From positions 1-64,000 of the forward strand of contig JAQBXR010000005.1 in the NCBI GenBank assembly GCA_027623295.1: DNA of 64,000 nucleotides, read 5' to 3'. The notes under the pieces are model-generated. The model was not told the origin of the DNA. It made no database searches and was given only the letters and a program-made list of their open reading frames with translations. Positions 38,306 to 62,006 of this stretch are shown here, piece after piece. The DNA is from Planctomycetota bacterium. GTDB taxonomy: Bacteria; Planctomycetota; UBA1135. Numbering within the stretch: the stretch's first letter is position 1; the number at the start of each line of letters is the position of its first letter. The translations under genes and the position numbers were made by a program.

Positions 38306-38344
38306 CTGCCGATACGGCAGACCGCGCCTGGCACGAGGATTGCT
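38306..38344 (+). promoter_or_regulatory. Sigma-54-like promoter with upstream palindrome (receiver-groES-groEL)
   Basis: The element TGGCACGAGGATTGCT (38329-38344) matches the sigma-54 consensus TGGCACG-N4-TTGCW completely, with GG and GC separated by 10 bases. Nine bases upstream of the GG lies the palindrome CTGCCGATACGGCAG (38306-38320). The predicted transcription start is near 38355, 11 bases before the receiver ATG. The same two-part arrangement with the same spacing precedes clpB. No CIRCE inverted repeat is visible. Confidence 0.75.
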
Positions 38345-38365: not shown

Positions 38366-38797
38366 ATGACTTACCGAATTCTCGTAGCCGACGACCAAGA
38401 CGACCAGCTCCGCGCTGTCGTTGCCCTATTGCAGGGGCCGGACGTTCGCATTGAGATGGCCTCCACCGGCGCGGATGCACTCCGTCAGCTACTGGAGACT
38501 CGTTATGACCTCTCCCTGCTCGATATGCACATGCCAGGCCTCACCGGTTTGGAAGTCATCGGGCAAGTCCAACAAGCTGGGCAGCTTGTTCCTAGCATTT
38601 TGATGACCGGCAACCCATCGCGTGAGATTGAACTCGCCGCCATGGAGTTAGGTGTCATCACCATGCTGAAAAAACCCATCCCGGCGGAGTTGCTACGCAT
38701 CACCGTCCAACGCATCTTTTCCCAGTCGCCATTGCACCCCCGTCCTGCCCAGGACGAGCCCAAGAGCCCGCCACCGTCGAGTGGTGAGCCTTGGTAG
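38366..38797 (+). CDS. Stand-alone response-regulator receiver domain
   Basis: This 143-residue CheY-like receiver has RILVADDQDDQ (acidic pocket, about 5-13). The phospho-acceptor Asp is in DLSLLDMHMPG (about residue 52). The Thr of SILMTGN (about 80) and the Lys of LKKPI (about 102) are present, so all active-site residues are there. A Pro-rich tail of about 20 residues follows, and there is no DNA-binding output domain. It is the first gene after the sigma-54-like promoter and ends 29 bases before groES. Co-expression of a phospho-receiver with GroESL is unusual. The partner kinase is not in the window. Confidence 0.9.
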   Translation: MTYRILVADDQDDQLRAVVALLQGPDVRIEMASTGADALRQLLETRYDLSLLDMHMPGLTGLEVIGQVQQAGQLVPSILMTGNPSREIELAAMELGVITMLKKPIPAELLRITVQRIFSQSPLHPRPAQDEPKSPPPSSGEPW

Positions 38798-38826: not shown

Positions 38827-39135
38827 ATGGCCAAAACCGCCAAGAAAGTCGCAATCCGCCCATTGGGCGACAAAGTTCTCCTTCAGCGCCTCGCTGCTGC
38901 TGACATCTCTGCCGGTGGCATCGTGCTGCCTGACTCCGCAAGGGAGAAGCCAGCCGAAGGCACCATCATCGCATTGGGCGAAGGTCGTCTTTTGGATGAC
39001 GGCAAGCGCACCGAATTTGCCGTGAAGACCGGCAACCGCGTGTTGTTCACCTCCTACGCCGGCACCGAAGTCGAGTGGGAAGGTGTGGAATACCTCATCA
39101 TGTCGGAAAACGACATCCTCGGCATCGTCGGTTAG
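38827..39135 (+). CDS. groS: Co-chaperonin GroES
   Basis: The 102-residue protein has the standard GroES start (VAIRPLGDKVLLQRL). The mobile loop region is AADISAGGIVLPD, and the ending YLIMSENDILGIVG is typical. It caps the GroEL ring during ATP-dependent folding. The ORF-track start at 38791 overlaps the receiver gene; ATG 38827 gives the family length. It lies 10 bases ahead of groEL in the same unit. Confidence 0.96.
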   Translation: MAKTAKKVAIRPLGDKVLLQRLAAADISAGGIVLPDSAREKPAEGTIIALGEGRLLDDGKRTEFAVKTGNRVLFTSYAGTEVEWEGVEYLIMSENDILGIVG

Positions 39136-39145
39136 GACTTAGATC

Positions 39146-40780
39146 ATGGCTAAAAAAATCGCATTCGACCAGGAAGCTCGTGAGGGCATCCGCGCAGGCG
39201 TGAAAAAGCTTGCTGCAGCAGTCAAAGTCACACTCGGCCCACGTGGCCGCAACGTCATCATCGAGAAGTCTTTCGGCACCCCGATTGTCACCAAGGATGG
39301 TGTCACGGTTGCCCGCGAGATTGAGCTCGAAGATGCCTACGAAAACATTGGAGCACAACTCGTGCGTCAGGTTTCCGCCAAGACCAGCGACATTGCTGGC
39401 GACGGCACCACCACTGCAACTGTGCTCGCAGAAGCCATCTTCGAAGAAGGCCTGCGCAACGTTGCTGCTGGCGCAAACCCGATTGAGCTGAAGCGCGGCA
39501 TGGAAGCTGCTGTAGAGGCCGTCACTGATTTCTTGAAAGAGAAGTCGACCAAGGTCAAGAGCACCGAAGAGATTCGTCAGGTTGCAACCATCGCTTCCAA
39601 CAACGACCTGGAAATCGGCGCCAAGCTCGCTGAGGCCTTCGAGAAGGTCGGCAAAGACGGTGTCATCACTATTGAGAAAGGCCGTTCGCTCGAGACCGAA
39701 ATCGAGTGGGTAGAAGGCATGCAGTTCGATAAGGGCTACTTGTCCCCGCACTTTTCTACCAACATGAAGAAAATGGAAGTTGAGTTGGAGGATCCATACA
39801 TCCTCATCTTCGAGAAGAAAATTTCCAGCGTACGCGACATGCTTCCTGTGTTGGAAGCCGTGGCTAAATCTGGCAAGCCTTTGTTGGTTCTTGCGGAAGA
39901 TGTCGAGGGTGAAGCTCTCGCAACTTTGGTGGTCAACAAGCTGCGCGGCATCTTCAAGTGCGCCGCAGTCAAAGCTCCTGGTTTCGGCGATCGTCGTAAA
40001 GCTATGCTCGAAGACATTGCAGTCCTCACCGGCGGCACTGCTCTCATGGAAGATCTCGGGCTTAAGCTTGAGACCGCTACCGTCGAGCAGCTCGGTCAAG
40101 CAAAGCGCGTGGTCATCACCAAAGACACAACCACCATCGTCGAAGGTGCTGGCAAGAAGTCTGCAATCAAAGAGCGCATGGATTTCATCCGCGCTGAGAT
40201 TGAACGCACTTCCAGCGACTACGACAAAGAGAAGCTCATGGAGCGCCTGGCCAAGTTGGCCGGTGGCGTTGCGGTGCTAAACGTTGGCGCTGCAACCGAA
40301 GCTGAAATGAACGAGAAGAAGGACCGTGTCGATGACGCGCTTGCTTCCGTCCGCGCAGCCGCTGAAGAAGGCGTGCTTCCTGGCGGTGGAACTTCCCTAC
40401 TTCGTGCGCAAGCCTGCATTGCTGAGTTGGGCTTGAAGGGCGACCAGAAAGCAGGTTCTGAAATCATCAGTCGTGCTCTCGAAGCTCCGATTCGTCAGAT
40501 TGCTGCAAACGCAGGCGTCGATGGCAGTCTCATCGTAGACAAGGTTCGTAACGCTAAATCATTCACGCAAGGTTACAACGCTGCAACTGGCGAGTTAGGC
40601 GATATGATCAAGATGGGCATCATTGACCCAACTAAGGTTGTGCGCACCGCTTTGCAGAACGCATCTTCCGTCAGCACTTTGCTGCTCACCACTGAGGCGA
40701 TTGTCTCCGTAGTAAAGGAAGCTGCTCCACCAATGCATGCCGGTGGCGGCGACCCAATGGGCGGAATGGGCGGCTTCTAG
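39146..40780 (+). CDS. groL: Chaperonin GroEL
   Basis: This 544-residue protein aligns by eye with GroEL throughout. Features include [11 protein letters not shown], the ATP-binding [14 protein letters not shown] (about 85-98), the apical domain around [19 protein letters not shown], and [15 protein letters not shown]. The Gly-Met tail [12 protein letters not shown] is present. It forms the double-ring folding chamber with GroES. The canonical C-terminal GGM repeat marks it as a housekeeping chaperonin. It is followed by a strong terminator. Confidence 0.97.
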
Positions 40781-59365: not shown

Positions 59366-59404
59366 CTGTCATATTGGCAGAACTTCTTCGGCACGGGCAT
59401 TGCA
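59366..59404 (+). promoter_or_regulatory. Sigma-54-like promoter with upstream palindrome (clpB)
   Basis: CGGCACGGGCATTGCA (59389-59404) matches TGGCACG-N4-TTGCW at all but the first base, with GG and GC 10 bases apart. Nine bases before the GG lies CTGTCATATTGGCAG (59366-59380), the same CTGYC-N5-GGCAG palindrome found before the receiver-groES-groEL unit. The predicted start of transcription is near 59415, about 33 bases before the ATG. Confidence 0.72.
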
Positions 59405-59447: not shown

Positions 59448-62006
59448 ATGAACCCAGATTCTCTCACGCAGAAAACTCAAGAGGCCCTGCATCTCGCAGA
59501 GCGCTTCACCCGTGATCTCTCACACAGAGAGGTCATGCCGGCACACCTTCTTCTTGCTCTTTTAAAACAAGAAAAAGGACTTGTACCTGCCCTCATCTCG
59601 AAGACCGAGCTCAGTCCATTATTGGCTGAAGCCCTTGCTAATGCTGCCTTAGCAAAACTGCCCAAGGTTCAGCCGGGCGACGTTTTGGCCTCAAAGGAGC
59701 TTGGTTTTTTGCTGCAGGCCGCTGACGCATGCCGCCAAGCAAAGGGTGATGACTTCTTATCCACCGAGCACCTACTCATTGCTTTAGTCTCGGCCGACTC
59801 CCCTCTTGGCAAAGAACTGCAGGAAGCTGGAGCGACTCAAGCTGCAGTCCGGGAAGCCCTGGAAGAAATCCGAGGAGACCGTCGAGTCACCGATGCCAAT
59901 CCGGAAGCCAGTGATGATGCGCTTGGAAAGTATGCGCAGGACCTCACTCAGCTTGCCCGCGAAGGAAAGCTGGATCCAGTCATTGGTCGCGATGAAGAAA
60001 TACGTCGGGTCATGCAAATCTTGTCGCGCCGCACCAAGAACAATCCGGTGTTGGTCGGCGAACCTGGGGTCGGCAAAACCGCGGTGGTCGAAGGATTGGC
60101 CCAGCGCATTCTGTCCGGCGATGTGCCCACCGGTCTCGAAAACAAGCGCTTGATGTCTTTGGACTTGGGCGCCCTTTTGGCCGGTGCAAAATATCGCGGT
60201 GAGTTTGAGGAACGACTCAAAGCTGTGCTTAAAGAAGTCCAAGATGCAGACGGCGGCATCATTTTGTTCATCGATGAGCTGCACACCATGGTGGGTGCGG
60301 GAGCTGCTGAAGGAGCGGTCGATGCCGCGAACCTACTCAAGCCAGCCTTGGCCCGCGGCGCACTGCGTTGTATTGGCGCAACCACTTATGGAGAGTACCG
60401 TAAATACATCGAGAAAGATGCGGCGCTCGAACGAAGGTTCCAGCCGGTAAAAGTGGAAGAGCCCGATGTCGCGGAAACCATTGCCATCTTGCGCGGCTTG
60501 CAAGAACGTTATGAAGTGCATCATGGTGTGAAAATCACCGATGCTGCTTTAGTCGCTGCCACTAACTTGTCGCATCGTTACATCGCAGATCGTCAGCTGC
60601 CAGACAAAGCGATTGACGCCATGGATGAAGCCATGAGTCGTTTGCGGTTGGAGTTGGATTCCATGCCTGCGGAACTCGATGCCATGGAGCGCCGTTTACG
60701 CCGCATTCAAATTGAGCAAGCAGGATTGGAAGCGGAAGGCGGTGAAGATGCCACTGCCAAAATTAAGGCTTTGGAAGAAGATAAAGCCGAAGTGGAGGAG
60801 CATGCGCAAGCCCTTCGTGCACGTTGGCAAAATGAAAAACAGCAAGTGGATTTGATAAAGGATTCCATGGCCAAGGTGGAAGAGTTGCGTATTCGCGCTG
60901 GACAATTAGAGCGTGAAGGTAACTTGGAAGAAGTCGGACGCATTCAGTTTGGCGAGATTCCGGCACTTGAAGCTGCCGCGGAAAAGGCTGCCTCCAAACT
61001 GCATGAACTTCAAGGCGAGCATCCAATCTTGCGCGAAGAAGTCGGCCCTAGCGAAATTGCTGAGGTGGTTGCCGCGTGGACTGGAATCCCAGTGGATCGC
61101 ATGATCGAAACCGAGCGCCAACGATTGTTGGAGCTGGAATCCTTGCTGAAGAAGCATGTCATCGGACAAGATGAAGCCGTCACGGCGGTAGCAGAAACCG
61201 TGCGCCGTGCGCGTGCCGGCCTGCAAGATGAGAGCCGCCCACTGGGTAGTTTTATTTTCCTGGGACCGACCGGAGTAGGCAAAACCGAATTGTGCAAAGC
61301 CATCGCTACGGAACTGTTTGGAGACCAACAAGCCATGGTCCGCCTCGATATGTCGGAGTACCAAGAGAAACACACGGTTGCGCGCTTGATTGGTGCGCCT
61401 CCGGGTTACATCGGCCATGATGAAGGCGGCCAACTTACCGAACTGGTAAGGCGTCATCCTTATTCCATCGTTCTCTTCGACGAAGTGGAAAAGGCTCACC
61501 CCGATGTCTTCAACACTTTGCTGCAAGTGCTCGATGACGGTCGCTTGACGGACAGCAAAGGGCGTACGGTGGATTTCCGCAATACGCTCTTGGTGATGAC
61601 CTCGAACTTGCGCAGCATGTCGGATTTGAAAGCGCACTTCCGCCCTGAATTTGTAAACCGTATCGATGAAGTTTTGGTGTTCGACTCCTTGTCGAAAGAA
61701 GCACTAGTACGCATTGTTGATTTACAAATGACCGAGCTTGCAAAGCGCCTCATGAAAAACACCCAGTTGCACCTCGAGGTTGACGCTGATGCCCGAGCCT
61801 GGTTAGCCGAGCGAGGTTACGACGCCGACTTTGGAGCCCGCCCACTGCGGAGGCTCATTCAACGAGAGATTCTGAATCCACTTTCGGAAAAACTCCTCAG
61901 GGGTGAGCTCGAGGATTGTGATGGAGTGCGTGTGGGAGTTGCAGATGGGAAGCTCGCTTTCGAGTCGACGCAAGTCGGCGTCGAGGCGTACCATTCCATT
62001 TCGTGA
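59448..62006 (+). CDS. clpB: ATP-dependent disaggregase ClpB
   Basis: The protein is 852 residues from ATG 59448. The N-terminal Clp_N double repeat ([20 protein letters not shown]) is followed by NBD1 with Walker [14 protein letters not shown] and Walker [10 protein letters not shown]. The ClpB-specific coiled-coil middle domain spans about 390-520. NBD2 has [26 protein letters not shown] and [12 protein letters not shown]. The segment after TSNL in NBD2 is about 20 residues shorter than in E. coli ClpB. With DnaK it reactivates aggregated proteins. Its stop overlaps the next gene (GTGA). Confidence 0.95.

Follow-up and report, generated by a model that had tools for sequence, protein, structure and literature searches.

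Two chaperone units in the window, i.e. the whole 64,000 nucleotide stretch of Planctomycetota DNA analysed here, are preceded by the same composite block, in which a palindrome stands beside the -24/-12 element of a putative sigma-54 promoter. It is quite likely that this block is a sigma-54 chaperone promoter with an abutting enhancer for an NtrC-type activator, the gene for which adjoins dnaK, and that it coordinates dnaK, the receiver-groES-groEL unit and clpB.

The composite block precedes groESL and clpB in the window

The block consists of the palindrome CTGYC-N5-GGCAG followed after 8 nt by YGGCAC-N5-TTGC; its fuller form is CTGYC-N5-GGCAG-N8-YGGCACG-N4-TTGCW. The original prediction was that a common 39-base block with a full match to the -24/-12 consensus precedes both groESL and clpB, and this was borne out: exact copies lie at 38306-38344 (before receiver-groES-groEL) and 59366-59404 (before clpB), each with an exactly matching element. 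The spacing of 9 bases given there holds when counted to the GG; the gap between the palindrome and YGGCAC is 8 bases. With up to three mismatches allowed, 0.06 block matches would be expected in the window, and two were found, both exact. The palindrome alone (0.36 expected) likewise occurs just at the two block positions, and a PWM scan of the window gave ∼21 bits for these two palindromes and less than 10 bits for the runner-up. CIRCE (TTAGCACTC-N9-GAGTGCTAA) was absent from the window with up to three mismatches allowed, in line with what had been claimed.

Assuming the usual distance from the element, transcription is predicted to start at about 38355 for the groESL unit and about 59415 for clpB. 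This would put the centre of the palindrome at about -42 at both promoters, with predicted leaders of 11 nt and 33 nt respectively. The most likely clpB start, judged by comparison with relatives, is that given in Table 1; a longer reading frame from 59361 was rejected because its start lies just 5' of the promoter block, so that it is not the clpB gene.

Table 1. Features of the two chaperone promoters and of the genes behind them in the window
Feature	Position	Strand	Remarks
Palindrome CTGCCGATACGGCAG	38306..38320	+	Putative NtrC-type activator site (enhancer); 21.5 bits, the top PWM score in the window
Sigma-54 -24/-12 element TGGCACGAGGATTGCT of the receiver-groES-groEL unit	38329..38344	+	Exact consensus match, conserved in relatives
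Single-domain response regulator	38366..38797	+	First gene of the groESL unit; receiver only; D53, T81 and K103 present
groES	38827..39135	+	PF00166
groEL	39146..40780	+	PF00118
Palindrome CTGTCATATTGGCAG, putative activator site of clpB	59366..59380	+	Pattern and PWM
Sigma-54 -24/-12 element CGGCACGGGCATTGCA of clpB	59389..59404	+	Exact consensus match
clpB, start ATGAACCCAGATTCTCTC	59448..62006	+	ClpB domains; start by comparison with relatives

The block marks the main chaperone units of the genome and of the family

The 2.45 Mb genome of the window's organism (G000) contains three exact block matches, against about 0.0005 expected in i.i.d. sequence, and all three precede chaperone units i.e. 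receiver-groES-groEL, clpB and dnaK, the third copy (G000:C34:2669-2706) lying directly 5' of dnaK. The block therefore marks the three main chaperone units of this genome. A site profile run over the genome gave no additional convincing site, and with this profile no block was found upstream of grpE, hsp20, htpG or lon. Of the further genes that the original prediction had proposed to search, dnaK thus carries the block, and grpE, hsp20 and lon in this genome seem not to. The same proposal named rpoN and genes for enhancer-binding proteins, and both rpoN and a dedicated activator were found. Both promoters of the window have a GG-N10-GC element flanked by consensus bases, and the genome encodes rpoN, as expected of sigma-54-dependent promoters.

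The window's family (f1) was represented by 26 genomes, all genomes compared being incomplete metagenome-assembled genomes (MAGs). The block was found by pattern in 24 of these, with zero control matches, and in 23 it is kept nearly always before dnaK, groESL or clpB; the remaining genome (G018) has a pattern match (L097) that does not adjoin a chaperone gene. When the loci were read gene by gene, 23 genomes had the block upstream of dnaK, 12 had it upstream of receiver-groESL and 9 had it at the clpB locus. A profile search of the family showed a clear score gap, nearly all of the strong matches lying before the same three units. Because the sites were gathered by pattern, their invariant columns are partly selected and their uniformity is partly imposed; columns 4, 12, 24 and 30, which the pattern leaves free, are conserved all the same, and at the dyad pair 6/10, likewise left free, 25 of 41 sites have complementary bases. 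The presence of the block at orthologous dnaK, groESL and clpB genes of relatives, and at this organism's own dnaK, runs against the outcome named in advance as refuting the prediction, i.e. its absence from relatives and from other chaperone genes. The genome search of the family found rpoN; hrcA was found in none of the 26 genomes, so the system is not of the HrcA/CIRCE type.

Among 392 sampled Planctomycetota genomes the strict block was present in all 12 members of the family and in 6 others, and these 6 look like chance once their loci are read. Matches in Bradyrhizobium and Oxalobacteraceae, and most of the order-level matches outside the family, were also judged to be chance. Two good blocks, at L083 and L097, have no chaperone gene downstream, and in G003 (L068, 3951-3988) a clpB-type block is kept although clpB is missing, its -24 element having decayed to GGCAG.

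A kinase and an NtrC-type activator are encoded beside dnaK

G000 encodes few sigma-54 activators. The candidate is a protein of 479 aa comprising a receiver, an AAA+ domain and a Fis-type HTH (PF00072, PF00158 and PF02954), with the loop GSFTGA; it thus has the receiver, the AAA+ domain with a GAFTGA loop and the Fis-type HTH that define NtrC-type activators. A soluble histidine kinase of 247 aa, with HisKA and HATPase domains only, is encoded before it. The activator gene ends 14 nt 5' of the dnaK palindrome, and most of the family keeps the order activator-block-dnaK. Across 20 activators of the family the recognition helix has the sequence [IM]G[EQ]RTLYRK, IGERTLYRK being nearly invariant. 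The closest solved domains to this HTH are those of NtrC-family regulators, ZraR and Fis, and the palindrome shares its dyad core, CCA-N3-TGG, with the NtrC box TGCACCAnnnTGGTGCA (PMC8743547).

A profile of the HTH domain gave one strong match in nearly every block-carrying genome, G543 being an exception, and no strong match in G015 and G023, the one genus (g11) without the block; as these two genomes are incomplete and belong to one genus, the joint absence of block and domain amounts to a single case. A similar domain, with the helix SERTLYRK, occurs away from dnaK in families f5 and f6 (L279, L287, L288 and L292), and the activator loci read there had neither dnaK alongside nor a palindrome nearby. 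This counts against the mechanism proposed below.

The block recurs in Gemmatimonadota

In Gemmatimonadota the block was found before grpE-dnaJ, clpB, hsp20 and dnaK, and, with an imperfect palindrome, upstream of groESL; one planctomycete MAG that carries the name Planctomycetaceae also has it before dnaK. The block, and not the genes, served to find these loci, so the agreement of the target genes is independent evidence. Dozens of genomes from two phyla keep the GG and GC together with the consensus bases around them, in a near-fixed geometry to the palindrome. The spacing of palindrome and promoter before chaperone genes takes values of 8, 9, 10, 19, 20, 29, 32 and 33 nt; a strict helical-phase rule (9, 19, 29 nt) was dropped because 32 and 33 do not fit. 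HrcA is present in 8 of 10 Gemmatimonadota genomes checked.

Two Gemmatimonadota genomes and G455 each encode one activator with the same HTH as in the family, and the other activators read there differ. These candidates show, by eye, no phospho-acceptor Asp, and the one in G452 has no Pfam receiver match. Candidate activators of Gemmatimonadota (L144, L148 and L155) have a receiver-like N-terminal domain that lacks the phosphorylation site; their HTH is preceded by a coiled-coil-like insert, VRSLVEVKLQLEELRR. Because the receiver-like domain lacks a phosphorylation site, the activator in the two Gemmatimonadota genomes and G455 probably senses something else.

Two further observations were made in this phylum. 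In three genomes (L122, L123 and L124, about 1501-1538) a Ser/Thr kinase gene is faced by a similar block, which lies between it and lon, and in one relative (L172, about 1448-1485) a block with one mismatch precedes rpoN, which may reflect chance or autoregulation.

Proposed mechanism and alternative explanations

In the mechanism that we propose, the enhancer would be placed directly against the -24 element of the sigma-54 promoter. A dimer of the activator would bind CTGCC-N5-GGCAG, centred near -42; once phosphorylated, the activator would oligomerise and remodel the adjacent sigma-54 polymerase, so that dnaK, receiver-groES-groEL and clpB would be switched on together. We infer from the arrangement of sites and genes that the activator binds the palindrome, that this binding activates transcription, and that heat or misfolded protein is the signal. 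Such activators normally bind 80-150 bp upstream, and at -42 the site would lie directly against the polymerase, which counts against the proposal. The usual enhancer distance (about 80-150 bp) is indeed not kept in the window's family, where the centre lies at about -42, but it is kept in sister families.

In these other families of the order the gene order kinase-activator-dnaK is often conserved, and at 9 of 10 dnaK loci beside such an activator one or two palindromes lie 63-125 nt before the GG of the sigma-54 element (the distance at L289, where the PWM scan gave no sigma-54 element at threshold, was taken from a separate reading of the site). They usually form a tandem pair with copies about 40-43 bp apart, and the arrangement as predicted from sequence is the classical geometry of an enhancer. 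The same palindrome at enhancer distance points to an NtrC-type activator site that is unusually close to the promoter in the window's family. A tree of the activators separates this family from the rest (99/98), although, being unrooted, it does not indicate whether the distal or the proximal site is ancestral. Two palindromes also lie where the kinase gene of G032 begins (L284, 8155 and 8207), which suggests autoregulation.

Three other explanations of the block were considered. The first is that a separate repressor, which heat would release, occupies the palindrome and obstructs the sigma-54 polymerase, with the activator acting from elsewhere or from solution. The palindrome does abut the -24 element, a typical position for an operator, and other bacteria have chaperone repressors, HrcA among them. 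However, steric repression is improbable from the palindromes of the sister families, which lie far upstream, are often doubled and stand beside the same activator gene. In addition, a fixed operator would not be expected with a spacing that varies between 8 and 33 nt, HrcA is absent from the window's family, and linkage to the sites was seen for no other regulator gene. A repressor is therefore unlikely. Of the two possibilities originally raised, a repressor or an atypical activator, the second is thus favoured, in the form of an NtrC-type activator bound unusually close to the promoter, and the distance of the site in the sister families is that of an enhancer.

A slightly less probable explanation is that the activator, bound to the proximal palindrome, acts as a brake (a 'governor') at high activator levels, and that activation needs no fixed site. 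This would fit feedback control of chaperones, and we take the position at -42 to resemble that of the weak, promoter-near NtrC governor sites at E. coli glnAp2. However, the palindrome is a perfect, high-scoring site, unlike a weak governor site, and within 400 nt before dnaK the genomes of the window's family have no second, distal palindrome except in G018 (154 nt from the GG, with a half palindrome at the proximal place) and a weak one in G014. Finally, the -24/-12 match could be fortuitous and the palindrome could serve an ordinary sigma-70-type promoter, as the transcript starts in these organisms are predictions, but this is highly improbable given rpoN, the GG and GC and flanks conserved at near-fixed geometry across two phyla, and the mapped sigma-54 starts of chaperone genes in Flavobacterium psychrophilum (PMC9723704).

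The original inference of a sigma-54 promoter with an adjacent regulator site is thus supported by rpoN, by the dedicated activator and by conservation in relatives. We also lean, by a smaller measure, towards the broader view that a sigma-54 activator dedicated to proteostasis acts at a promoter-proximal enhancer in at least Planctomycetota and Gemmatimonadota, and stands in for HrcA in the window's family.

Relation to known systems

Sigma-54 promoters before core chaperone genes are known from other bacteria. In F. psychrophilum sigma-54 starts have been mapped before groESL, dnaK, grpE-dnaJ, lon, htpG and clpB (PMC9723704), and such promoters have been predicted for the chaperone genes of Bacteroidota and Planctomycetota (PMC12316311). 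The promoters of the window resemble these, whereas the accessible parts of the two papers name no activator, activator site or palindrome; here an activator, a kinase and a site abutting the -24 element are proposed. The original description of an undescribed heat-shock control system therefore does not extend to the sigma-54 chaperone promoters themselves, and would apply to the activator, its site and the promoter-proximal geometry, which appear to be undescribed. A literature search that mostly did not extend to subscription papers found the palindrome and the activator named nowhere. Studholme and Dixon reportedly treated the sigma-54 activators of Pirellula sp. strain 1 in 2004.

HsfA/HsfB of Myxococcus xanthus, which acts at lonD, sets a precedent for heat-shock control by an NtrC-like activator (PMC9109919). 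Like the pair proposed here it combines a two-component kinase with an NtrC-like activator, and it controls a heat-shock gene. However, the kinase here has HisKA and HATPase only and HsfB is of the hybrid type, so the pair is not of the HsfA/HsfB type; moreover, the targets given there are lonD, pilY1 and secondary-metabolite genes (PMC9109919), whereas here the operon adjoins dnaK and the proposed targets are core chaperones. NtrB/NtrC of E. coli at glnA shares the soluble kinase, the NtrC-type activator and the dyad core (PMC8743547), and the distal tandem sites of the sister families match its classical enhancer geometry; unlike it, the system described here has CTGCC/GGCAG half-sites, chaperone targets and, in the window's family, a single site near -42. 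With HrcA/CIRCE it shares an inverted repeat before groESL and dnaK, but the sequence is another one, the promoter is of the sigma-54 type, and both CIRCE in the window and hrcA in the 26 genomes are lacking.

In Rhodopirellula baltica a heat response is seen for the chaperones but not for the genes of known stress sigma factors (PMC2754498). For the control of planctomycete heat-shock genes there is now a concrete candidate regulator with a named site and named targets, and this can be tested directly. The same enhancer, distal in the sister families and abutting the promoter in the window's family, also makes up a natural series, in which one can ask how near to the promoter a sigma-54 activator can bind and still work.

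The single-domain receiver of the groESL unit

In 12 family genomes the receiver gene stands first in the groESL unit. Our guess is that the receiver, made together with GroES, serves as a phosphate sink or as part of a feedback; DnaK and this receiver could both feed back on the kinase-activator pair.
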